From positions 1 through 25,449 of IMG/VR virus record IMGVR_UViG_3300008107_000514: a DNA stretch of 25,449 nucleotides; one strand, 5' to 3'. The DNA is from a virus. The notes under the pieces are model-generated. The model did not search any database. It saw only the letters and a list, made by a program, of their open reading frames with translations, and had not been told where the DNA came from. Positions 15,899 through 25,449 of the stretch are shown one piece after another (position 1 is the stretch's first letter; the number at the start of each line of letters is the position of its first letter). The translations under genes and the position numbers were made by a program.

Positions 15899-16345
15899 TC
15901 AGAAAGGATCGTCCTTCTGGACGGGCTTGGGAACGTAGTTCTTGACTACGGGATTAGCGGGACGAGCAGCCTCACCGTCGTCGTCTTCCTGCGTGATGCA
16001 GAGGAATGCGGCGAGGGCGTAGCGACGCAGATAGGTCGTGGCAGAGCCGACTCCCTGCGGGTCAGCCTTGGGCAGCGGGGAGCTGGCCGTGTCCTCGATC
16101 CATTGCCCGGACGTGTGCAGCAAACGGGTGGTCAGATGCACCCGGTCCCCGCCGTCTCCGAGCGTCTGGAGCACCACGATGCCAGCCTTGTTGAGCGGGC
16201 CTTTGGTGGCCTCAATCACCGAGCCTAAGCTGGCGTATGAGTTCTTGAAGTGCGGGTTCTTGGCGTCCTTCGACGCGTTCTCCACCTCGCGCTGAGCAGC
16301 CAGAAGGGCTGCGCTAATCAGGTCAATTTTTTCCGATGTTTTCAT
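15899..16345 (-). CDS. ERF-type single-strand annealing protein
   Basis: A 148-residue protein of the ERF superfamily: NPHFKNSYASLGSVIEA (30-46) and GVGSATTYLRRYALAAFLCI (98-117) are its two signature segments, followed by an acidic stretch (TQEDDDGE). ERF proteins anneal complementary single strands in phage recombination and genome circularisation. The downstream PD-(D/E)XK nuclease would provide the resection. The last residues are KDDPF, similar to the acidic tip of SSB proteins. The start ACACAAATG lies inside the end of the upstream gene. No truncation seen. Confidence 0.85.
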   Translation of the reverse strand: MKTSEKIDLISAALLAAQREVENASKDAKNPHFKNSYASLGSVIEATKGPLNKAGIVVLQTLGDGGDRVHLTTRLLHTSGQWIEDTASSPLPKADPQGVGSATTYLRRYALAAFLCITQEDDDGEAARPANPVVKNYVPKPVQKDDPF

Positions 16346-16520: not shown

Positions 16521-16650
16521 CTTTGTGTCGCTGTTCTTGTGGTGGATTGTTCTGCGGAAGGGAAGCCTTTTCTTTGCCGAAAACTCTATCCCAGCCAGTA
16601 CGAAAGGCTTCCGAGTGATTATTCCGAGGTGAATCTCCTTTGCCGTTCAT
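16471..16650 (-). CDS. Small basic protein coupled to the helicase
   Basis: A 59-residue protein whose ATG overlaps the helicase stop (CGATGA). Segments: NNHSEAFRTGWDRVFGKEKA and a highly charged tail (QEQRHKDDKNETRQRRLRDA). The F-R-x-x-[WY]-D-R-[VI]-F-G-K pattern is common in short phage proteins of unknown function in replication operons. The gene contains a 10-bp inverted repeat (GGAAGCCTTT / AAAGGCTTCC). Without this gene the span would be an unexplained gap in a tightly packed operon. Confidence 0.65.
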   Translation of the reverse strand: MNGKGDSPRNNHSEAFRTGWDRVFGKEKASLPQNNPPQEQRHKDDKNETRQRRLRDAAR

Positions 16651-17981
16651 CGTGCGAGTTGCTGGAACTTGGTGGTGGGACGATTGAAGACCATTCGGAT
16701 GGAGGCGCAGCCGTTGTCCCGGCCTTTAGCTTGGACGATCTCCACCTCTAGGTTCTGGACAGTCTGATCGTTGAGGGTCTGCGTGCCGCCCTCGGAGTTC
16801 TCGGATGGCAGATGGATGAAGATCACCCGGTCTGCGTCCTGCTCGATGTTTCCCGATTCCCGGAGGTCTGAGAGGCGGGGAATGCGGTTCTCCCTCTCTA
16901 CCTCCCGGCTCACCTGAGCCAGCAGGATGACGGGGATGCCCATCGAGACGGCCAAATCTTTGAACGCCAAAGTCGTCTGTCCGATAGCAATGTCCCGCGT
17001 CTCTCCTTTGCCATGCGGCGGCACGTAGAGCTGGAGGTAGTCGATCACGACGGCTTTCACCTGCATAAAGGCTTTGCATGCTTCGATGCGGGCGGCGATC
17101 TGGGATGGATTGCGGTCGCTGTCGAAGATGTGCAGCTTCTTCGACAGGTTGGTCTCGATGTCCTTCAGGGCATTCTCGAAGGCTTTGATCTGGTGCTGCG
17201 AGGCTTGCCGGGATTCAATGGCTCGGACGGAGACGCCCGACATCATTCCAGCCAGTCCTTTACAGACCTTCTTGACCGGCATCTCACGCGAGAAGAGCAG
17301 CGTGTCGCCGTACTTGGTGGCGAAGTGGCGGCAGATGTCGCGGGCCATTGAGGACTTACCGACACCGGGACGAGCGGCGATGACGATCAGTTCCCCGCCA
17401 GTTGCGGCCCCTAGTTCCTTGGTCATATCCGGCCAAGGCCACGTCATTCCGGTCTGCTCGGCTTCCCCGGACAGGAGCTTGGCGAGATCCGCCATCACCT
17501 GACTCGCGGCATCCTTGAGGCTGACCTGCGTAGCCGTCTGATTGCGGATAGCCAAGACCTTGCTGATCTTGGCGACGAACTCATCGACCTGCGGCTTGCC
17601 CGCTAGGGCCATTTGCGTGGTCTCTGAGGCCACAACAGCCAGTTCCCGGGCCTGATACGCATCCCGAAGGGCATCTAGGCTGTAAGCGAACGCCAGAGGG
17701 GTAGGCGAGGCTCCTGAGATGTCTGCGAAGTTTTGCATCCCGCCCACCTTGCGGAGGTCGGGGTCAGACTTCTTGAGTTCCGCGCAAATGATGTGCGGCT
17801 CCAGTCCAATCCCCTTGATGTGAGCCTCGTTGACTTGTTTCCAGATCACTTTGGCGAATGCGTTGTAGAACCAAGCCTCCGTGACCTTGTAGTCCAGAGC
17901 TTTAAGGAGGGCCGATGGGCCTTCGTTCATCACGACCGAGAGGACAATCCTCTCAGCTTCTTCATTGTGCGGGAGTTTCAT
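16647..17981 (-). CDS. DnaB-type replicative DNA helicase
   Basis: A 444-residue RecA-fold helicase. Residues ~1-110 match the DnaB N-terminal domain (HNEEAERIVLSVVM at the start). The ATPase domain has Walker A ARPGVGKSS (203-211), SREMP (231-235), Walker B VVIDYLQL (311-318), LLAQVSREVE (353-362) and DLRESGNIEQDAD (372-384), all in the usual order. The enzyme would unwind DNA at the fork as a hexamer, 5'-3'. Length is normal for phage DnaB. No primase domain or separate loader was seen, so primase may come from elsewhere in the phage or from the host. The start follows AGAAAGATAAATG and overlaps the upstream gene by 20 bases. Confidence 0.9.
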   Translation of the reverse strand: MKLPHNEEAERIVLSVVMNEGPSALLKALDYKVTEAWFYNAFAKVIWKQVNEAHIKGIGLEPHIICAELKKSDPDLRKVGGMQNFADISGASPTPLAFAYSLDALRDAYQARELAVVASETTQMALAGKPQVDEFVAKISKVLAIRNQTATQVSLKDAASQVMADLAKLLSGEAEQTGMTWPWPDMTKELGAATGGELIVIAARPGVGKSSMARDICRHFATKYGDTLLFSREMPVKKVCKGLAGMMSGVSVRAIESRQASQHQIKAFENALKDIETNLSKKLHIFDSDRNPSQIAARIEACKAFMQVKAVVIDYLQLYVPPHGKGETRDIAIGQTTLAFKDLAVSMGIPVILLAQVSREVERENRIPRLSDLRESGNIEQDADRVIFIHLPSENSEGGTQTLNDQTVQNLEVEIVQAKGRDNGCASIRMVFNRPTTKFQQLAR

Positions 17982-18139: not shown

Positions 18140-18343
18140 TCAAACCGTATCCGTAAGGATAGCGTCGAGCCGGGCGATTTGTTCCACGCTGAGGTGTTGG
18201 AAGACTGCGGGGTCGCGGATGAAGGCTGTGAGGTCATTGATCTGTGTTTCTAGTTTGGCGGCGAACTCGGCTTTAACTTTGGCCGGGCGTCCGCATTGCA
18301 GGACATCAAGTTGTGCTTTGTCTGTTAATGGCGTTGAATACAT
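18140..18343 (-). CDS. Hypothetical protein downstream of thyX
   Basis: A 67-residue protein from ATG 18343, inside the last 38 bases of thyX (alternative start at 18370). It reads MYSTPLTDKAQLDVLQCGRP, AKVKAEFAAKLETQINDL and FIRDPAVFQHLSVEQIARLD. Helical throughout. GRPAKVKAEF looks like a short basic DNA-contact or AT-hook-like start, but the rest is acidic. Role unknown. Confidence 0.55.
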   Translation of the reverse strand: MYSTPLTDKAQLDVLQCGRPAKVKAEFAAKLETQINDLTAFIRDPAVFQHLSVEQIARLDAILTDTV

Positions 18344-20009
18344 TAGGGAATTGTTTGCTGAAGATTTCACGGATTAGGCAGGCGAGTTCGCGGTGCTCCT
18401 TTTGCGTGTGCTCTGCGCATCTCTGGTCGAAGTAATGAATCCACGACCTGACGTTGCCGGTCACGTACATCCGAGTGCGTGTTGACAATGGCAACACCAT
18501 CCGGGCGGTCTCCTTGCTTACCCCTTTCGAGATGAGGTGCTTGTAGGTTTGGATTGCCGCACTTACGGCCTCCTGCGCCTGCCATTGTAGGTCGATGTCA
18601 TTGCAGGGGTCGCCGGAAGCCTGTCGGTTCTTCTGGTCCTGCCAGCGGAGCTCAATGTTCTCATAGTCGCTGTTTGTTGCGTAGCGTTGGCTGTTATGCG
18701 TCACGATTCCATTCCCAACATAGTTGTGGGAATGGTGATCGACTTCAATGTCATAGGTCATCTCCTCACCAATGTACTCGATGCTTTTAACTTTGCTCCA
18801 ATGAACTGTTAAGCGATTGCCGGTACTCTTCTCGCGCCACGACTTCGTGTGGCCGAGTATCTTGTGGTGAGCGCGATGACACGCAAAGCACAGTACTTCA
18901 ATATTTGAAGGCTCCATAGCCAAAGCCTTGTTTTCAAACACGGGTACTATGTGATGCAATTCAAGCTTATGACTTGAACCGCATCGCGCACACTTGTACT
19001 GAGCGCGCTTTAGAAATTCGGAGCGTAAAGCCGAACACCAATCTGCAATCCTTTGCCGTTCTTCTCGCTGCACACCTCCGCGCCACAAATTAGATTCTGG
19101 CCCGCGTTTTGCAGATGCGCGAATCTTTTCAATCGCCTCTAATGAATGAGGCTTGCCCTTGTATCGCTTGCCCTTGTTCCAAGTCGGACTGTACGAAGCA
19201 ACCTCTAGCTTAGAAAGCTGAAGTCCGTGCTTTGCCATCCATTTTCTGACGGTGTGATACGAAATCCCGGCTTCCTCTGCAATTCCGGGCAGACCGCGTT
19301 TTGAGGAAATTGCGCGCTGACGCGCTTCAATCATCCAGCTCTTGTCCTGATGAATAGGGATACCGTTGCAAGCGAATGCTGCGGCATCTCTCGCCCAAGT
19401 GACACGACCATCGTTTCTCTCTAAGCCTACGGCATCCTCTAAGCTTTTGAACCCAGCCGTTGTGAGAAACTTGTGCTCCTTCGTAGAGTCAATGGACCTA
19501 CCGTTCTCAAGCGTCACGCGGTAAAGTGGCTTAACTCCAGTCTCGAAGACCTCCTTTATCGCGGCGGTAGTGAATGTCCGCGTGGTCTCGTCGAAGACGC
19601 GAACGCACGTGGGCATTTTGCCTGCACGCGATTGCAACTTAAACAGGTGTTTGATGGTACGCTTGTAGGATGCACGCTTGCCTTTCCGTATCCCGTTATG
19701 AAGTTCCAACGTTATCTTGGTATTGCCGGAGACGCAAAATTCCTGAAACGTGAACGAGCGATGGCGAAGGATCTGCGCGGCAATAGCCCGTGACGTTTCT
19801 ACCTCAACGGTCATCGAGGCAGTCTCAAAGACCGACCAATGCCCGTGGCGGATGCAGTATGCAAGGAGACGCGGAGCTGTCTCCGTGTTGAGCTGGTTCG
19901 ACGGGTTGGATACCCGGGCGCAGTAGGCAATGAGGTCGTCTGCGGTGAGGATGCCTTGCTCGATGAGGTCGGCGCAGGGCTGGGTGATGCTGACTAGTTT
20001 TGCGTTCAC
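18306..20009 (-). CDS. thyX: Flavin-dependent thymidylate synthase ThyX, intein-containing precursor
   Basis: A 567-residue precursor. The ThyX part is residues 1-91 plus 440-567 (219 residues, normal length). Its signature R-H-R-x(7)-S is split: RHRSFTFQEF (82-91) ends before the intein, and SQRYA (440-444) follows it. Downstream, LPLSTRTRMYVTGNVRSWIH and HTQKEHRELA match the ThyX C-terminal motif (T-x-N-x-R-S...Q-x-E-x-R-x-x-A). ThyX makes dTMP from dUMP using FAD, NADPH and methylene-tetrahydrofolate, and supplies thymidylate for phage DNA synthesis. The ATG overlaps the upstream stop (ATGA). The precursor should be inactive until splicing, because the intein breaks the substrate-binding signature. 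Confidence 0.92.
   Translation of the reverse strand: MNAKLVSITQPCADLIEQGILTADDLIAYCARVSNPSNQLNTETAPRLLAYCIRHGHWSVFETASMTVEVETSRAIAAQILRHRSFTFQEFCVSGNTKITLELHNGIRKGKRASYKRTIKHLFKLQSRAGKMPTCVRVFDETTRTFTTAAIKEVFETGVKPLYRVTLENGRSIDSTKEHKFLTTAGFKSLEDAVGLERNDGRVTWARDAAAFACNGIPIHQDKSWMIEARQRAISSKRGLPGIAEEAGISYHTVRKWMAKHGLQLSKLEVASYSPTWNKGKRYKGKPHSLEAIEKIRASAKRGPESNLWRGGVQREERQRIADWCSALRSEFLKRAQYKCARCGSSHKLELHHIVPVFENKALAMEPSNIEVLCFACHRAHHKILGHTKSWREKSTGNRLTVHWSKVKSIEYIGEEMTYDIEVDHHSHNYVGNGIVTHNSQRYATNSDYENIELRWQDQKNRQASGDPCNDIDLQWQAQEAVSAAIQTYKHLISKGVSKETARMVLPLSTRTRMYVTGNVRSWIHYFDQRCAEHTQKEHRELACLIREIFSKQFPNVFNAINRQSTT
18693..19736 (-). mobile_element. Intein with HNH homing endonuclease in ThyX
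   Basis: 348 residues (92-439 of the precursor). Splice residues: Cys92 first, His438-Asn439 last and Ser440 as +1. N-terminal block CVSGNTKITLELHNG; the T-x-x-H motif is TKEH (176-179); C-terminal block YDIEVDHHSHNYVGNGIVTHN split as YDIEVDHHSHNYVGN and GIVTHN. Inserted in the middle are a helix-turn-helix (RGLPGIAEEAGISYHTVRKW, 238-257), a NUMOD-like DNA-contact segment (KPHSLEAIEKIRASAKRG, 286-303), and an HNH nuclease (C340, C343, HH352-353, N369, C374, C377-H378). The DNA looks lower in GC than the flanks. A complete element, probably still able to home. Confidence 0.9.
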
Positions 20010-20745: not shown

Positions 20746-21049
20746 TGTGTGTTGGTTTCTGTGTTTGGTTTCCTACGACGGGGCGAATCCCCGTCTGCAT
20801 CCACTCAAGGCACAGGAGATACCCGTGCGCGTCAATCAAATTGTCGTCCTTCGGCTTATGTGCCTGACGCCGAAGCTTTAAAGCGCACATCATCAGCGGA
20901 ACGTCCTCTGCGGTGATGGGGCTGGTGAGCCGGGTGTTGAGGAGTCCGGTCCACATCGCGGCGATGCCGCTGAAGTCCTGATCTGGGGTGCCGTAGCTCT
21001 CGTTTCTGTCCCCGGTGATCAGACGGATGGCTTCTTCTGCGTGATTCAT
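20735..21049 (-). CDS. DUF6378-like phage protein
   Basis: A 104-residue protein. Motifs: GDRNESYGTPDQDFSGIAAM (13-32), ITAEDVPLMMCALKLRRQAH (45-64) and KDDNLIDAHGYLLCL (67-81). This R-x-x-x-Y-G-x-x-x-x-x-F...I-x-x-x-D-V-x-x-M-M...K-x-x-R...D-N-x-[IV]-D-x-x-G-Y pattern is that of DUF6378, a frequent phage family. The helix and acidic-residue pattern recalls all-alpha nucleotide pyrophosphatases of the MazG group, so it may clear unwanted nucleotides, in keeping with ThyX in the same operon. The enzyme activity is inference. The start overlaps the upstream stop (ATGA). Confidence 0.7.
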   Translation of the reverse strand: MNHAEEAIRLITGDRNESYGTPDQDFSGIAAMWTGLLNTRLTSPITAEDVPLMMCALKLRRQAHKPKDDNLIDAHGYLLCLEWMQTGIRPVVGNQTQKPTHNED

Positions 21050-21459
21050 TCTTTTTCCTCCTTCTCAGCCTTCAGCCGTTCGTTCATCATTGCGTCGGCA
21101 AGGGTGTAGCAGATACGGGCGACCTCTTGCACAGACACGGGACTACCAAACCCTTTGGAGAGCGTCCCGTTGAGGGCCTGCGCCGCGAAGTAGTCGCGGA
21201 GAGCCCGATCATTGTTGAAACTCTTGATCATCGCAGGACTCTTCCCGGAGATCGGCTTTCCCGTCCACTCAATGCCGCGCTCTTGAGCGACCTGCTTGAT
21301 GGTGTTGATGGACCTTTGGCTAATCCCCCGGATTTGGAGGAGTAAGCGGTCATCCATCTGAGCCACCTTCTCTAGGGTTTCGTATCCAAGGGTGCAGAGG
21401 TTCTGAAGAGCCTCTTGCCTTACCCACTTGAGGTCTAAGGATTCGAGTGGAGTGCTCAT
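21046..21459 (-). CDS. RpoA C-terminal-domain-like protein fused to a phage domain
   Basis: A 137-residue protein in two parts. Residues ~8-63 (LDLKWVRQEALQNLCTLGYE, TLEKVAQMDDRLLLQIRGIS, QRSINTIKQVAQERGIEW) resemble the helix-hairpin-helix fold of the RNA polymerase alpha C-terminal domain (L-x-x-R-x-x-N-x-L...G-x-x-T-[IL]-x-x-L...LL-x-I-x-x-[FI]-x-x-x-S-[LI]-N-x-I-K). Residues ~84-128 (DRALRDYFAAQAL, then ARICYTLADAMMNER) match a C-terminal domain common in small phage proteins. The first domain could touch DNA or the host polymerase, and so redirect transcription. The start overlaps the stop of a tiny membrane protein gene (ATGA). Remote similarity by eye only. Confidence 0.6.
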   Translation of the reverse strand: MSTPLESLDLKWVRQEALQNLCTLGYETLEKVAQMDDRLLLQIRGISQRSINTIKQVAQERGIEWTGKPISGKSPAMIKSFNNDRALRDYFAAQALNGTLSKGFGSPVSVQEVARICYTLADAMMNERLKAEKEEKE

Positions 21460-21557
21460 TCAAAGTCCTCCCGGTCAGGGCCGTTCTCGCTTTGGATCAC
21501 GATTCCGACTACGACTCCAATTAGGAATCCGAGTCCGGTGCATATTAGTGTCATCAT
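21456..21557 (-). CDS. Tiny single-helix membrane protein
   Basis: A 33-residue protein starting at tandem ATGs (21557 and 21554) after an A-rich leader (CCCAAAACCAAAG). Residues ~4-21 (LICTGLGFLIGVVVGIVI) form one membrane helix with small residues, followed by an acidic tail (QSENGPDREDFE). Its stop overlaps the ATG of the next gene (ATGA), so the two are coupled. A hairpin (CGGCGC-TTTTT-GCGCCG on the plus strand, 21577-21593) lies just upstream. First gene of the replication operon. Role unknown. Confidence 0.6.
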   Translation of the reverse strand: MMTLICTGLGFLIGVVVGIVIQSENGPDREDFE

Positions 21558-21687
21558 CTTTGGTTTTGGGTTATTACGGCGCTTTTTGCGCCGGAAGGTT
21601 AAGAAATTGAATGTATGTTTTTTCCAATCCCCGCTAGGGCGAGGCGTAGACGAGCCCCGGCAGGAACATCAAGGGAGAACTTTTATG

Positions 21688-21709
21688 TACTACCCCTTTT
21701 TAGATACCG
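21688..21709. repeat. 22-bp direct repeat, copy 1
   Basis: TACTACCCCTTTTT followed by AGATACCG. It matches the copy at 21799-21820 at 19 of 22 positions; the three differences are together at positions 15-17 and 18 of the repeat region. Non-coding position upstream of the leftward operon suggests a protein-binding or promoter element. Confidence 0.6.
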
Positions 21710-21798
21710 GGGGCTTCCATAGGGAGTCGCCCTATGCTGTCTTTTTGCCGTTTGCTGATTCCTCCAAGAGCTAGCTCAGAGTTTCAGTTGGACATCCT

Positions 21799-21820
21799 TA
21801 CTACCCCTTTTTGAGTACCG
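21799..21820. repeat. 22-bp direct repeat, copy 2
   Basis: TACTACCCCTTTTT followed by GAGTACCG, 111 bases from copy 1 and in the same orientation. On the minus strand the core reads AAAAAGGGGTAGTA, upstream of the replication operon in its direction of transcription. Confidence 0.6.
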
Positions 21821-22040
21821 AGAACCCCCAGACCATACCGCTTGAAGCCCCCACAATCTACGTTATGGATTTCTCGTCCAACCTAGCAAAGCTGACTGTA
21901 TCGCCGTTTAAAGCGTCCGGGGCATTTATGGCATTACGTGGCCGGAACCCTACGCGGGCTTCTCGGATAGTCTGATGGTGTTCGGTGAGACCCTCGATAA
22001 GGTCGTCACAGGCTCTCCCTGTGCTCCATTCCATTAGACT

Positions 22041-22089
22041 AAAAAAGAAGCCCGGCGAGGTAGAGCTCTCGACCGGGCTCGGGCTTCTT
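22041..22089 (-). terminator. Rho-independent terminator, minus strand
   Basis: A perfect 10-bp stem (AAGAAGCCCG at 22045-22054 with CGGGCTTCTT at 22080-22089), with further pairing possible inside the 25-base loop. In the minus-strand transcript the stem is followed by a run of U (the A-run at 22041-22046). It would end transcription from the endolysin gene before the replication operon begins. Confidence 0.75.
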
Positions 22090-22193
22090 GCCCCAAACTT
22101 GGTTGAGCGGGCTCTACTCCGCTGCTGACAAAACTGACTCTACCATACAGACGCTTGACTACAAGCTTTAGATGTGGGATTTTACCTTTAAGA

Positions 22194-22379
22194 ATGGAAA
22201 CACTTGAAAGTCAGCTAGATATGTTCGAAGAAAGTTCTAAGAAGGTGAAGGTTTTAAGCGGAGTTCCCGCCAAGAAAGTAGCCATCACTCTAGCGTCGCA
22301 GGTCACGCTTCCCTCTGTCAGCCAGCCATTTACGGCTATTAGGGTTAGCCCAACCGAGACTTGGATCATCAACCATTGA
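22194..22379 (+). CDS. Small protein with beta-clamp-binding-like motif
   Basis: A 61-residue protein, METLESQLDMFEESSKKVKV at its start. Q7-L-D-M-F11 fits the bacterial sliding-clamp-binding consensus (Q-L-[SD]-[LM]-F, as in DNA polymerases and MutS). The rest (GVPAKKVAITLASQV, then FTAIRVSPTETWIINH) is a small basic then hydrophobic region with no known domain. The ATG follows TTTTACCTTTAAGA, one of the repeated CCTTTAAGG-type sites. It is the only plus-strand gene in this part and overlaps the end of the endolysin gene by 90 bases, tail to tail. If real it could bind or block the host clamp. Function inferred from the motif only. Confidence 0.5.
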   Translation: METLESQLDMFEESSKKVKVLSGVPAKKVAITLASQVTLPSVSQPFTAIRVSPTETWIINH

Positions 22380-22712
22380 TTTCACCTTTAAGGAGTAGCG
22401 CGTGGATTGGCCCTTTAAGGCATACTGGGAATTGGGCCCGTGCCTCCAGATGTTCGCTCTGGTTTGCGGCGTGTCGGGCAGCCGGTGCCGCGCCACCCAC
22501 CTATCCGTGTAAAGGCAGAACAGACGGAAGGAGCCATCAAGGGTGGATCGGTCCTTTAAGGAAGCCTTGTGGCCCCAAGCCTGCACGTCCTTGACCACGG
22601 CGGGCTGGATTTGGGCTGGGCCTACGGCGGAGCCGTTCCGGGCGTTTAGGTCGCCGGCACTCTCCATCTGGACGATGGCAAGGAACAGGATCAGGAGCTG
22701 GGACTCGGGCAT
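22290..22712 (-). CDS. Lysozyme-like endolysin (SLT / lytic transglycosylase type)
   Basis: A 140-residue protein. Residues 6-20 (LLILFLAIVQMESAG) carry the catalytic Glu17 in an A-I-x-x-[VM]-E-S-x-G motif; NARNGSAVGPAQIQPAVVKD matches the following N-x-x-x-G-x-x-G-x-x-Q-I-x-P segment of lysozyme-like transglycosylases, and ANIWRHGPNSQYAL the W-[NRH]-x-G-P segment. It would cut the glycan of peptidoglycan at lysis. There is no separate signal peptide, so it may need a holin, although the N-terminal helix is fairly hydrophobic. It lies on the opposite strand from the lipoprotein and holin-like genes near 2 kb. The ATG follows TCTACTAAA. Confidence 0.75.
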   Translation of the reverse strand: MPESQLLILFLAIVQMESAGDLNARNGSAVGPAQIQPAVVKDVQAWGHKASLKDRSTLDGSFRLFCLYTDRWVARHRLPDTPQTRANIWRHGPNSQYALKGQSTRYSLKVKSMVDDPSLGWANPNSRKWLADRGKRDLRR

Positions 22713-22776
22713 TTTAGTAGATTTACTCGATTTAGTGGCCGGGGTTCACCCTTTAAGGGGGATTTGTCCTTTAAGG

Positions 22777-23073
22777 AGCTTTCCCCTAATAGGCGCGCGC
22801 CCGGCAAGCCTCTTCCCAGCGCACGGGTACGTACAGGATACTACGTAGGACTACGTAGGGGAAGAACCCCGGTAACAAGTGTGGATAGGAAAAAGACCCT
22901 AGAAAGCTATTGGGGAAAATTCCCCAATTCCAGAAATCGCAGGAAAGGGCATTTCCTTGCGTTTCTAGGGGTTTTGATGCGCTAGGGCTACCGTGACACT
23001 CCCCGCGTTCCCCGAGCCCCGCAAAACGCAACGAAACGCGCAAGGGAAAGCGCGGATCCGCGCAAATAGGCGC
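22777..23073. promoter_or_regulatory. Palindrome-rich control region A
   Basis: Non-coding DNA between the endolysin promoter side and the terminator of the small-gene module. It holds three TACGTA cores (GTACGTAC at 22827-22834, CTACGTAG at 22841-22848 and 22851-22858), a near-perfect palindrome ATTGGGGAAAATTCCCCAAT (22909-22928, 9-bp arms), CGAGCCCCGCAAA at 23013-23025, AAACGCAA at 23024-23031, and the 14-bp palindrome GCGCGGATCCGCGC at 23050-23063. TACGTA, GGGGAA/TTCCCC, CGAGCCCCGCAAA and AAACGCAA recur near 25.1-25.3 kb. Short open frames on both strands here look accidental. Confidence 0.5.
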
Positions 23074-23102
23074 AAAAAAGCCTCCCCGGCGAAGGGAGGC
23101 TT
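23074..23102 (-). terminator. Rho-independent terminator of the small-gene module
   Basis: Perfect 9-bp stem (AAGCCTCCC at 23078-23086 with GGGAGGCTT at 23094-23102), 7-base loop, and a U-run in the minus-strand transcript from the A-run at 23074-23079. It lies 20 bases after the stop of the last small gene (23122), where an end of transcript is expected. Confidence 0.85.
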
Positions 23103-23121
23103 GGATTGGGCTTGGCTTGGG

Positions 23122-23214
23122 TTAACCTAACAGGGCGAGCCCGGCCCCATACAACAAGAAGCCCGCGCAAACGACAAGCCAAAGGGCCGTTGTCACGAAA
23201 TCGGCCTTTTTCAT
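23122..23214 (-). CDS. Tiny single-helix membrane protein
   Basis: A 30-residue protein, MKKADFVTTALWLVVCAGFL then LYGAGLALLG. One membrane helix spans most of it, with the two lysines at the cytoplasmic end. The ATG overlaps the upstream stop (ATGA), so it is probably translated by re-initiation. It is the last gene before the terminator. A regulatory or host-membrane target is possible; nothing more can be read. Confidence 0.6.
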   Translation of the reverse strand: MKKADFVTTALWLVVCAGFLLYGAGLALLG

Positions 23215-23480
23215 GCGTAAGCGGCTTCAATGGGTTTCCCGGTATGCGCGCAAGTAAGGCTTGGGTCTTCCCAATTAATGTCCGCGCCTATCACTCGCCA
23301 GCCACTGTTGTCCCAAGGATCGCGCAAGGCACTAGTAATGAGCGCAGCGTTTTTTCGCGCAGCGTCAAAGCCAAGGGCCCCGCCGTCCGAACATACAAAG
23401 TAAAGCGGATATCCGCCCGGCCAAGCATAGGGCCCTTGCTTCAAGGCGCGTCCGAAATCTGAAGGTGTGTTTATTTGCAT
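23211..23480 (-). CDS. Conserved small phage protein (YPLYFVCSDGG / DINWED type)
   Basis: An 89-residue protein from ATG 23480, one base after the upstream stop. Segments YPLYFVCSDGGALGFDAARK, SGWRVIGADINWEDPSLTC and HTGKPIEAAYA match a small protein I recall from phages and conjugative elements, with a C-x-x-x-G motif near the end (T-C-A-H-T-G-x-x-I-E-[SA]-A-Y). Two Cys and a His might bind zinc. Function unknown. Its presence in a cluster of very small genes suits an early host-takeover or anti-defence role, which is inference. Confidence 0.7.
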   Translation of the reverse strand: MQINTPSDFGRALKQGPYAWPGGYPLYFVCSDGGALGFDAARKNAALITSALRDPWDNSGWRVIGADINWEDPSLTCAHTGKPIEAAYA

Positions 23481-23481
23481 G

Positions 23482-23631
23482 TTAGCGCAGGGACTTGAGG
23501 TAAACGCGAAATTCGGCGATAGCGTCGCGCTTTGTGTACCCGTAATAAGCGCGGCAAACCAAGCGATGGCCAAGCATCCCCGATAAATGCCAAGCGCCGG
23601 ACGGAAATAATTTGTAAGAGTTTATTTTCAT
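23482..23631 (-). CDS. Small conserved phage protein (YTKRDAI motif)
   Basis: A 49-residue protein, MKINSYKLFPSGAWHLSGML then GHRLVCRAYYGYTKRDAIAE. The W-x-L-S-G-M-x-G-x-x-L-V-x-R-x-Y-x-G-Y-[ST]-K-R-[DE]-A-I pattern is typical of short phage proteins of unknown role. Its ATG overlaps the upstream stop (ATGA), and its stop is one base before the next ATG. Basic overall, with a likely beta-hairpin and helix. Confidence 0.7.
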   Translation of the reverse strand: MKINSYKLFPSGAWHLSGMLGHRLVCRAYYGYTKRDAIAEFRVYLKSLR

Positions 23632-23894
23632 AAGTGTTTATTTGATAAGGACAACGGAGGAACGGCGAACAAGTCGCCTTCCTCGCTTTGGTGCAGCGAG
23701 TAGCAAATCCCCGCAACCGTCACCTCACCAAAGCGAAGGGCGTCCTCCCACGCCTCCCAATAGTATTCGTGATCCGGCCCGGCGCGAAGGATTGCCAAGT
23801 CCTCGGCAACGATACCGGAGACACCTTCAAGCTGCGCGAACTTTTGGGGAACGTAAATACCCCGCAAGCCGTCCAAAAGAATAAAGGGTTTCAT
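23628..23894 (-). CDS. Small hypothetical protein
   Basis: An 88-residue protein from ATG 23894 (ACAGATG, four bases after the upstream stop). Segments: MKPFILLDGLRGIYVPQKFA, AEDLAILRAGPDHEYYWEAW and EVTVAGICYSLHQSEEGDLF. The Y-Y-W-E-A-W-E and DLFAVPP segments recall a common phage and plasmid accessory protein family of unknown function. Acidic. The frame continues upstream to 24182 but that stretch is covered by the neighbouring gene. Confidence 0.6.
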   Translation of the reverse strand: MKPFILLDGLRGIYVPQKFAQLEGVSGIVAEDLAILRAGPDHEYYWEAWEDALRFGEVTVAGICYSLHQSEEGDLFAVPPLSLSNKHL

Positions 23895-23898
23895 CTGT

Positions 23899-24182
23899 TC
23901 AGAAGTTAAGGACAAGGACACTCTCACCAGACTCCACAACTTGCGTGTGATCGCGGAGCCAAAAGAGGGCTTTGTCCGGGTCTTCCTCGGCGTGCCCAAA
24001 GGCAGCGCAAGCCTCGGTCGCGTTTTCGTACTCCGTCCACTCACAGCAAAGGCCGATTGCGTCGAATTCGAGTTCCTCATCCAAGCTGCGCTCAAATTCT
24101 TCGAGATGATCGTACAGGGCGTGGGGCGGATCTTGTTAAAGCGATCGGCAAAATCCGATCCAGAGCGTATGGTGTCTTTCAT
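23899..24182 (-). pseudogene. Small conserved protein gene with an apparent frameshift
   Basis: The ATG at 24182 (leader AACACTAAACACAAAAGATA) opens MKDTIRSGSDFADRFNKIRP, then leaves the frame that encodes the conserved body. The body, in the -1 frame, reads PHALYDHLEEFERSLDEELE, FDAIGLCCEWTEYENATEAC and HTQVVESGESVLVLNF. It matches a widespread small family (A-L-x-x-[YF]-L-E-x-x-E...E-[LI]-[EQ]-[FL]-D-x-I-[AG]-[IL]-C-C-E-[WFY]-[TS]-E-Y). The frames would join as KIRPHALYDHLEEFE if a C were read twice in CCCC (the G-run at 24123-24126 on the plus strand), giving ~94 residues. This may be a base-call error, a mutation or programmed slippage. Confidence 0.6.
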
Positions 24183-24215
24183 TATCTTTTGTGTTTAGTG
24201 TTAACTGACAAAGGG

Positions 24216-24311
24216 TTAAAAGGCGTACGCAAGGCCTAATCCGAGTCCCGCAATCAAAAGGACATAGAGCAGCACGTCGGCAAGGGTGAGGTGTTCGGTA
24301 TCGTGTTTCAT
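24216..24311 (-). CDS. Tiny single-helix membrane protein
   Basis: A 31-residue protein, MKHDTEHLTLADVLLYVLLI then AGLGLGLAYAF. A short polar N-terminus precedes one membrane helix (residues ~12-30). The ATG overlaps the upstream stop (ATGA). It resembles the tiny membrane proteins at 23122 and 21456 in layout but not in sequence. Confidence 0.6.
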   Translation of the reverse strand: MKHDTEHLTLADVLLYVLLIAGLGLGLAYAF

Positions 24312-24508
24312 TCGGTCGCCTCCGGCGTAACGGTTGCTAACTCGGTGATGTCGAATAAGCCATAGTCGGTTGCCGTTCGATGCACTAGGGCAAATGTCCC
24401 GTCTTCGGCATCAATAATCCAAAGGCCGTTAACCAAAGGCCAAGCTTCGACTGACCAATCGGCATTCAAGCCCTTGTGAGGACCGAGGCGTGCGCGTAGC
24501 GTGCTCAT
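24308..24508 (-). CDS. Small hypothetical protein
   Basis: A 66-residue protein from ATG 24508, preceded by CCAACACAAATAAAAACT; an earlier start at 24535 would lie inside the leader hairpin. Segments: MSTLRARLGPHKGLNADWSV, WPLVNGLWIIDAEDGTFALV and YGLFDITELATVTPEATE. It looks like a small beta-barrel or sheet (strands WIIDAED, FALVHR, YGLFDI). No family recognised. Confidence 0.6.
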   Translation of the reverse strand: MSTLRARLGPHKGLNADWSVEAWPLVNGLWIIDAEDGTFALVHRTATDYGLFDITELATVTPEATE

Positions 24509-24527
24509 AGTTTTTATTTGTGTTGGT

Positions 24528-24578
24528 GGAGCCATAAGGGCTCCCCAAGGCCCTCGCCCGGAGGCAAGGGCTATGGGG
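24528..24578 (-). promoter_or_regulatory. Twin-hairpin leader, copy 1
   Basis: Between the 56- and 66-residue genes. A long stem pairs CCCCAAGGCCCTCGCC (24543-24558) with GGCAAGGGCTATGGGG (24563-24578) around a 4-base loop, with a few mismatches. A second stem, GGAGCC/GGCTCC (24528-24544), overlaps its base, so the two may exclude each other. No U-run follows on the minus strand. It shares AAGGGCTCCCC, CCCTCGC and GCAAGGG with the element at 24773-24819. Confidence 0.55.
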
Positions 24579-24583
24579 AAGCC

Positions 24584-24754
24584 TCACGGGACTTTTTCAA
24601 AGAAGCGGACCGTCACCGCTTGCCAGTAATCGTGAACCACTGGCAGTCCCTTGCGCGTTCCTTGAACTGTATATACCACCTGCTTTGAAAGCGGACTTTG
24701 ATAATCCGTGACGCGAATCCTATCCCCGATCTTAACTTTGTGTTTTGTGTTCAT
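24584..24754 (-). CDS. Small hypothetical protein, SH3-like
   Basis: A 56-residue protein from ATG 24754 (leader AACCAAAGCATAGA), reading MNTKHKVKIGDRIRVTDYQS, QVVYTVQGTRKGLPVVHDYW and VTVRFFEKVP. The pattern V-x-x-G-D-x-[IV]-x-V-x-D ... V-Y-T-V-x-G suggests a small SH3-like or KOW-like beta barrel. The 5' end is A-rich (ATGAACACAAAACACAAAG). The stop is followed closely by hairpin leader copy 1. Confidence 0.6.
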   Translation of the reverse strand: MNTKHKVKIGDRIRVTDYQSPLSKQVVYTVQGTRKGLPVVHDYWQAVTVRFFEKVP

Positions 24755-24772
24755 TCTATGCTTTGGTTTCGA

Positions 24773-24819
24773 AGCCCCAAGGGCTCCCCTATCCCCTCGC
24801 TTGCGCAAGGGGAACGGGG
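24773..24819 (-). promoter_or_regulatory. Twin-hairpin leader, copy 2
   Basis: Between the 90- and 56-residue genes. A long stem pairs CCCCTATCCCCTCGC (24786-24800) with GCAAGGGGAACGGGG (24805-24819) around TTGC, and a small stem AGCCC/GGGCT (24773-24785) abuts it. Same order of parts as copy 1, in the same place relative to its downstream gene. No U-run, so a simple terminator is unlikely. Confidence 0.55.
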
Positions 24820-24824
24820 AACGC

Positions 24825-25097
24825 TTAATTAGCGGCGTCCTCCAGAGTCAGGAAGCGGTAGGTGATCCCGGCCCGCGCAAGCTGCTCCTCAAGGCGACGG
24901 CTCGCGTTGTACATAGGAACCGCAATCCCCGGAGCGTTCAAGGAGCACGATTCAAGGCGCTTGTTCGCCGCACTCCAGCGCGAGGGATGCACGGTGCCGT
25001 CTTTCGACAGGATCCGCCAGACCCCGCCAACATTGAAGTCCCCGCCATTGAAAGAAACGGCGACATAGCGGTCGCCAGTCATAATTTGATTATTCAT
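24825..25097 (-). CDS. Small hypothetical protein, first of the right-end module
   Basis: A 90-residue protein from ATG 25097 (leader TAAATAATATAAATCATACT, very AT-rich). Segments: MNNQIMTGDRYVAVSFNGGD, FNVGGVWRILSKDGTVHPSR and RRLEEQLARAGITYRFLTLE. Beta-rich N-terminal half, charged helix in the second half. A second ATG four codons later gives MTGDRYVAV. The frame extends upstream to 25172, but that part shows no coding character. No family recognised. Confidence 0.55.
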   Translation of the reverse strand: MNNQIMTGDRYVAVSFNGGDFNVGGVWRILSKDGTVHPSRWSAANKRLESCSLNAPGIAVPMYNASRRLEEQLARAGITYRFLTLEDAAN

Positions 25098-25345
25098 AGT
25101 ATGATTTATATTATTTAGATTACCCCTCCAGAGTAGCATCCCGGATCCCGGAAACGCAATACGTAGTAACACCTATTTGCTAGCCTCTGAAGTGGGGAAA
25201 TTTCCCCAAAACGCAATAGACGCGAAATCTCGGGGCAGTCCATGCCTAGGTACGGGTCGCGAGGCGAGCCCCGCAAACGCGAAGGAAACCACCTAGGAAA
25301 CGAAATCCCGGCAACCCCAATCCCTAGTGTTCAAGCGTACACTCC
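25098..25345. promoter_or_regulatory. Palindrome-rich control region B
   Basis: Non-coding; it should hold the promoter for the small-gene module. Contents: an AT-rich stretch (25098-25122), AAACGCAA at 25152-25159 and 25209-25216, TACGTA at 25161-25166, the perfect 16-bp palindrome TGGGGAAATTTCCCCA at 25193-25208, and CGAGCCCCGCAAA at 25265-25277. The same parts occur in control region A. No clear -35/-10 pair is visible. Confidence 0.5.
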
Positions 25346-25353
25346 CCAAGGGT

Positions 25354-25437
25354 GACAGAAAGGACAGGAAGACAGGGAAGGACAGAGTGGCGGCCAGAGT
25401 CACGGCCAGAGTGAGACAGGGAGACAGGGAGAGACAG
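25354..25437. repeat. Short GACAG direct repeats
   Basis: GACAG occurs at 25354, 25363, 25371, 25381, 25415, 25423 and 25433, spaced 8-10 bases within two groups. Between the groups lies GGCCAGAGT twice (25392-25400, 25404-25412). The stretch is purine-rich on the plus strand and continues to the end of the window. Possible iterons, packaging or terminal-repeat DNA. Confidence 0.6.
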
Positions 25438-25449
25438 GCTTGGCGCAAT

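Follow-up and report, generated by a model that had tools for sequence, protein, structure and literature searches.

Does a short DNA motif that recurs within and around a lysozyme-like phage gene serve replication, transcription or both? The question arises from the IMG/VR virus record IMGVR_UViG_3300008107_000514, the 25,449 bases of which form the window analyzed here. The nonamer CCTTTAAGG occurs at positions 22385, 22412, 22553, 22750 and 22768, each time on the plus strand, and is preceded at 22185 on the same strand by a near copy with one mismatch, CCTTTAAGA; the remainder of the window does not contain any further exact copy. In 100 dinucleotide-preserving shuffles no 9-mer exceeded three copies per 600 bases compared with the five observed for CCTTTAAGG. 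When up to one mismatch is allowed, the window holds 16 matches, whereas 100 shuffles gave 5.1 on average and never more than 14. The first-pass annotation of this DNA had described a cluster of five exact copies and one near copy that lies beyond chance, and both statements are borne out.

The repeat unit and its place in the window

The nonamer is part of a larger unit. An extended consensus, GGATTTnnCCTTTAAGGA, had been proposed initially and turned out to be only roughly right, as it is exact at just one of the six sites. Across relatives the conserved unit on the plus strand is GGATT-NNN-CCTTTAAGG, and the A trailing it on the 3' side is not conserved. On the minus strand, which also encodes the endolysin-like protein, the unit spans 17 bp and has the form CCTTAAAGG-NNN-AATCC.

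The sites are distributed over coding and non-coding DNA alike, just as noted at the outset, with two located upstream of the endolysin-like open reading frame (22290-22712, minus strand), three inside and one downstream of it. The upstream pair constitutes a tandem array (22742-22776, minus strand) of two 17-bp units 18 bp apart, CCTTAAAGGACAAATCC and CCTTAAAGGGTGAACCC, that is situated 5' of the ATG, where relatives carry two to five units. Within the gene, the sites at 22545-22561 (offset +151), 22404-22420 (+292) and 22377-22393 (+319), all read on the minus strand, code for S-L-K-D-R-S, A-L-K-G-Q-S and S-L-K-V-K-S, respectively. The offset of the first is shared by most relatives and the last is 27 bp away from the +292 site. 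The downstream site (22177-22193, minus strand, offset +519) is degenerate, reads TCTTAAAGG-TAA-AATCC, resides directly before a small gene on the plus strand and overlaps a -10-like hexamer. TACGTAG repeats adjoin the array on its 5' side in the window (22777-22870) and in many relatives, together with a conserved stretch that resembles GCATTAGGTGGAAAA.

The gene that hosts three of the sites encodes a protein of 140 amino acids. Family searches with this protein gave no match. Its predicted fold yielded weak but coherent matches within the lysozyme superfamily (GH23 chitinase, destabilase lysozyme, Slt).

Distribution among relatives and selection on the DNA

A relative of the endolysin-like protein, with up to 100% identity, is encoded on 33 viral contigs, and the unit is present on all of them. 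Conservation in relatives that keep the endolysin had been suggested as a test and is thus found throughout. Most of these contigs feature two to five tandem copies with 17-19 bp spacing just 5' of the ATG, copies within the gene at the fixed offsets +151, +292 and +319, and the degenerate copy at +519 behind the gene. In a few contigs (L009, L015 and L027-L029) an insertion of about 600 bases separates the array from the gene. Taking all fetched loci together, we found 37 distinct tandem arrays of two to five copies with periods of 17 (32 cases), 18 (40) and 19 (7) bp, and the orientation of the sites across relatives is 129:1. When viral contigs were scanned for just the tandem pattern, 38 stretches came up, most of them from the same phage group; a loose 16-mer pattern gave mostly scattered single matches in the viral collection and was uninformative. 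In the distant G005 clade a variant site, CCTTAAGGC-NNN-RAYCC, occurs in the same orientation.

Equal density of the motif across the whole genome, which the first-pass annotation had named as a refutation, is not what we observed. In the complete circular relative G007 (39,439 bases, terminal repeats) all five exact copies fall within 29.0-31.1 kb, and neither G007 nor G001-G003 contain sites outside this region. A copy at offset +896 in type I relatives, introduced below, is probably a coincidence, as it codes for S-L-K-D-K-G within a winged-helix motif. Annotated phage records did not show any DNA similarity to window positions 21000-25449, the helicase encoded in the window reaches at most 28.5% identity among the matches listed from such records, and a TerL search of cellular genomes did not reveal a prophage relative. 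Among the literature matches listed for the 9-mer, no title concerned phage control sites.

The array pattern is also absent from cellular genomes except for two unrelated chance coding matches. This speaks against the idea that the sites address a host DNA-binding protein that is recruited or avoided by the phage, an explanation that we regard as improbable even though we found no phage gene that tracks the motif exactly, bar that for a small clamp-motif protein without a recognizable DNA-binding domain.

The peptides encoded by three of the copies, which are all in the same frame, resemble each other (x-L-K-x-x-S), and one might therefore suspect a protein repeat or mere chance. The codons tell a different story. 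At the three sites within the gene, 67 of 69 leucines are encoded by TTA compared with 7 of 293 elsewhere in the same gene, and TTA makes up 2.5% of the leucine codons in ten genes of the window. Synonymous diversity among 24 distinct endolysin genes amounts to 0.10 in site codons versus 0.27 outside (one-sided p = 0.0095, a value that is indicative since the sequences are related to one another). V110 is the sole site codon with free synonymous variation, and its varying base falls into the NNN spacer of the unit. In G007, the C-terminus of the endolysin-like protein is lengthened by extra site copies that code for S-L-K repeats. As the TTA bias and the low synonymous diversity are accompanied by occurrence of the very same unit in non-coding arrays, the data support that the sites are kept by selection on the DNA itself rather than on the protein, in agreement with the original proposal of selection as DNA or RNA. 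The unit is moreover conserved across relatives with proteins of only 50-65% identity, so that an artefact is refuted by the relatives and its probability is close to nil. As RNA, the isolated 17-bp unit leaves only a very short stem. The locus shows regulatory sites of one family superimposed on the coding sequence of a gene to which they are unrelated.

Possible roles as iterons for replication control or operators for transcription

We infer that the CCTTAAAGG family almost certainly consists of directional protein-binding sites in the phage DNA. The reading we favor, with a probability of about 0.5, is that these sites act as iterons for replication control and at the same time provide an autoregulatory operator. 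The units of the tandem array would be iterons in a region that controls replication, and a phage protein bound to them would open nearby DNA for the phage DnaB helicase. Placed on the plus-strand promoter site, the same protein would repress that promoter, from which a 61-residue protein, a putative docker on the host sliding clamp, would be produced. The dispersed sites in the lysozyme-like gene could allow the binding protein to titrate or bridge complexes. The iteron reading is suggested by the tandem layout, the fixed orientation, the embedding of sites in a gene, the O-like neighbor in type I relatives, the nearby replication genes and the protein with the clamp motif.

A minus-strand replication set is located to the left of the array and comprises genes for a DnaB-like replicative helicase (16647-17981, minus strand), an Erf-like single-strand annealing protein (15899-16345, minus strand), a PD-(D/E)XK exonuclease and the thymidylate synthase ThyX. 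The latter is split by an intein with an HNH domain (window 18306-20009, minus strand), an insert that is missing in relatives such as G001. Relatives of type I, among them G001-G003, encode a lambda-O-like initiator (PHROG_391; HTH_36) directly downstream of the endolysin-like gene, e.g. at 22558-23388 in G001 (L234:2558-3388). At the equivalent place it is missing in type II, indicative of a module swap, and no O-like gene was found in type II genomes, which include the window, G009, G010 and the complete genomes G007 and G005. The O-like protein is consequently rejected as a universal binder, being absent from type II genomes that carry the array. An HTH protein encoded upstream of dnaB is an unlikely binder as well, because the W-clade and G007 proteins did not match each other while their sites agree. 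Should iterons in type II genomes function with no O-like initiator present, the protein binding them would be a new initiator or regulator.

The one-orientation tandem repeats of about 17-22 bp that characterize a lambda-like iteron origin are present here (37 arrays, 129:1). The O-bound iterons in the origins of lambda and Stx phages are likewise repeats of about 18-20 bp in the phage replication region and inside a coding gene, and further likeness resides in the A+T tract that accompanies the array in some of our relatives and in the adjacent O-like gene of type I. In Stx phages, O is 13 residues longer owing to two extra iterons (PMC7466680), which is paralleled by the S-L-K copies in the endolysin-like gene of G007. 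The iterons of lambda and Stx phages are, however, located in the initiator gene, whereas the sites described here are found in a lysozyme-like gene and its leader. The two systems also differ in that our direct repeats combine a near-palindromic 9-bp core with AATCC, in that several copies are dispersed, and in that type II genomes keep the array without an O-like gene. Iterons of the plasmids P1, RK2 and pSC101 resemble the sites in being direct tandem repeats of one orientation and variable copy number, with copies outside the array, one of them on a nearby promoter. Helical phasing is the general rule for plasmid iterons (PMC5043065). In contrast, the period drifts between 17 and 19 bp here, so that such phasing is not maintained, and no Rep protein was identified.

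Some observations count against the iteron reading. Besides the lack of the O-like gene in the window and in the complete type II genomes G007 and G005 and the mixed periods without helical phasing, these are an A+T flank that is weak or absent in close relatives and the fact that sites placed on promoters suit operators equally well. The 60 bases after the array comprise 67-70% A+T in G007/G009/G010-type relatives versus 45-51% for the locus, a point in favor of iterons, but only 37-58% in the close clade. GC skew did not provide a clear origin signal.

The small plus-strand gene (22194-22379) encodes 61 amino acids, overlaps the endolysin-like gene tail-to-tail and is conserved in array-carrying relatives. 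Among 35 contigs with this gene, 34 have at least two exact sites, the exception being a truncated contig. Neither a Pfam or PHROG match nor a recognizable DNA-binding domain was found for the small protein, and a structure model of low confidence shows a helix followed by a linker, the prediction of which is poor, and a beta hairpin at the C-terminus. The sequence QLDMF at its N-terminus conforms to Q-aliphatic-x-[L/M]-[F/L], the motif for binding to the bacterial sliding clamp (PMC11139829), and the protein probably docks on the host clamp. An apparent diverged C-terminus of the protein is kept in the G005 clade. The gene is preceded by the promoter-like sequence TTGACT-17-GATTTT (22155-22183, plus strand), which, like all promoters discussed here, was assigned by consensus match only. 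In an alignment of 24 loci, most relatives have TTGACA instead, and TTGACA-17-GATTTT is nearly invariant although the left flank varies.

This arrangement also fits an explanation by transcription operators only, in which a phage repressor or activator would switch the small-gene promoter and the leftward early operon and form loops between clusters, without any role in replication. As in phage operator arrays of the lambda OL/OR type, several near-palindromic sites lie over promoter-like hexamers in an early control region, and the near-palindromic core CCTTAAAGG would suit a dimer. Overlap with consensus-based promoter elements is indeed evident. The -10-like hexamer in front of the small gene lies within the degenerate site at 22177-22193, the spacer of TTGCGG-17-TAAAAT in the G005 clade is taken up by one variant site, and some G007/G009/G010-type relatives have a TTGACT promoter-like sequence about 35 bp beyond the end of the array. 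On the other hand, the close clade does not show any promoter-like sequence after the array, palindromic operators do not need the strict orientation of 129:1, and we recognized no regulator gene co-varying with the motif. Compared with lambda OL/OR, the one-sided AATCC extension, the fixed orientation and the copies deep inside a gene are unusual, and a repressor gene was not recognized. Operators without a replication role are the main rival of the iteron reading, albeit a less probable one. Plasmid initiators commonly autoregulate, and the iteron and the pure operator readings therefore overlap in practice.

Of the three roles considered in the first-pass annotation, regulator-binding sites and origin repeats both stay viable, while phage-specific promoters are unlikely. 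Units 17-19 bp apart are too close to each other for separate promoters, and ordinary promoter-like hexamers adjoin or contain the sites. The spacing does not conform to promoters of a single-subunit RNA polymerase either, nor did a search of the relatives give any match to the family RNA_pol, a weak absence since the control search was silent too.

Packaging was considered as well. Genes for TerS and TerL in relatives start 2-4 kb to the right on the opposite strand, and repeated TerS sites occur in other phages, such that a terminase small-subunit site of the pac or cosB-like type could be imagined. Oppositely transcribed genes, however, lie between the sites and terS, the circular assemblies of G007 and G005 (terminal repeats) close elsewhere, within genes, and give no sign of fixed ends at the sites, and the sites reside within a gene and on promoters, all of which renders a packaging function very improbable. 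The array adds a new case to a known type of control site and indicates where replication and early control are probably governed in a phage group that has been seen in metagenomes alone.

A two-hairpin element next to the sites

Outside the repeat family, at 22044-22122 on the plus strand, the window contains an element of two hairpins with complementary, covarying loops. Relatives of the element are present in L014, L015, L030, L033, L286, L287, L290, L292, L293, L294, L297 and L299. The loops differ in sequence yet stay complementary, with at least seven pairs among the relatives compared: GTAGAGC/GCTCTAC, GTGATGG/CCATCAC, GTGGTGA/TCACCAC, GTAGCAC/GTGCTAC, GTGAAGG/CCTTCAC, TCCGCTAG/CTAGCGGA and TCTACTAC/GTAGTAGA. 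In an alignment of 14 sequences, each of the five loop-loop pairs tested has changes in both partners, and pairing is kept in 98.6% of their cells; for the whole structure, this value is 94.0% versus 30-39% in slid controls. An Rfam search did not return a credible match. The element is likely a kissing-loop RNA, judging from this covariation. Read on the minus strand, the first hairpin precedes a TTTTTT tract and may double as an intrinsic terminator. Additional pattern matches beyond this phage group lack the second hairpin and look unrelated.

It is conceivable, albeit rather unlikely, that the locus forms a composite switch without a classical initiator, made up of directional iterons dispersed in a lysozyme-like gene, a clamp-docking 61-residue protein and a kissing-loop RNA that sets the specificity of replication between related phages. 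If true, iterons would control the promoter of a clamp-docking protein, and the adjoining RNA loops would change fast while always remaining complementary. The covarying loops beside the array offer an independent handle on specificity.

Further to the left, some 80 bases (window 21881-21962) are conserved at the DNA level in type II and in the very distant L312, L314 and L317. They include the hairpin-like sequence CGCCGTTTAAGGCG with a compensatory change (ACGTGG..CCCTACG / ACGTCC..CGGTACG), and in type I the O-like gene stands in their place.
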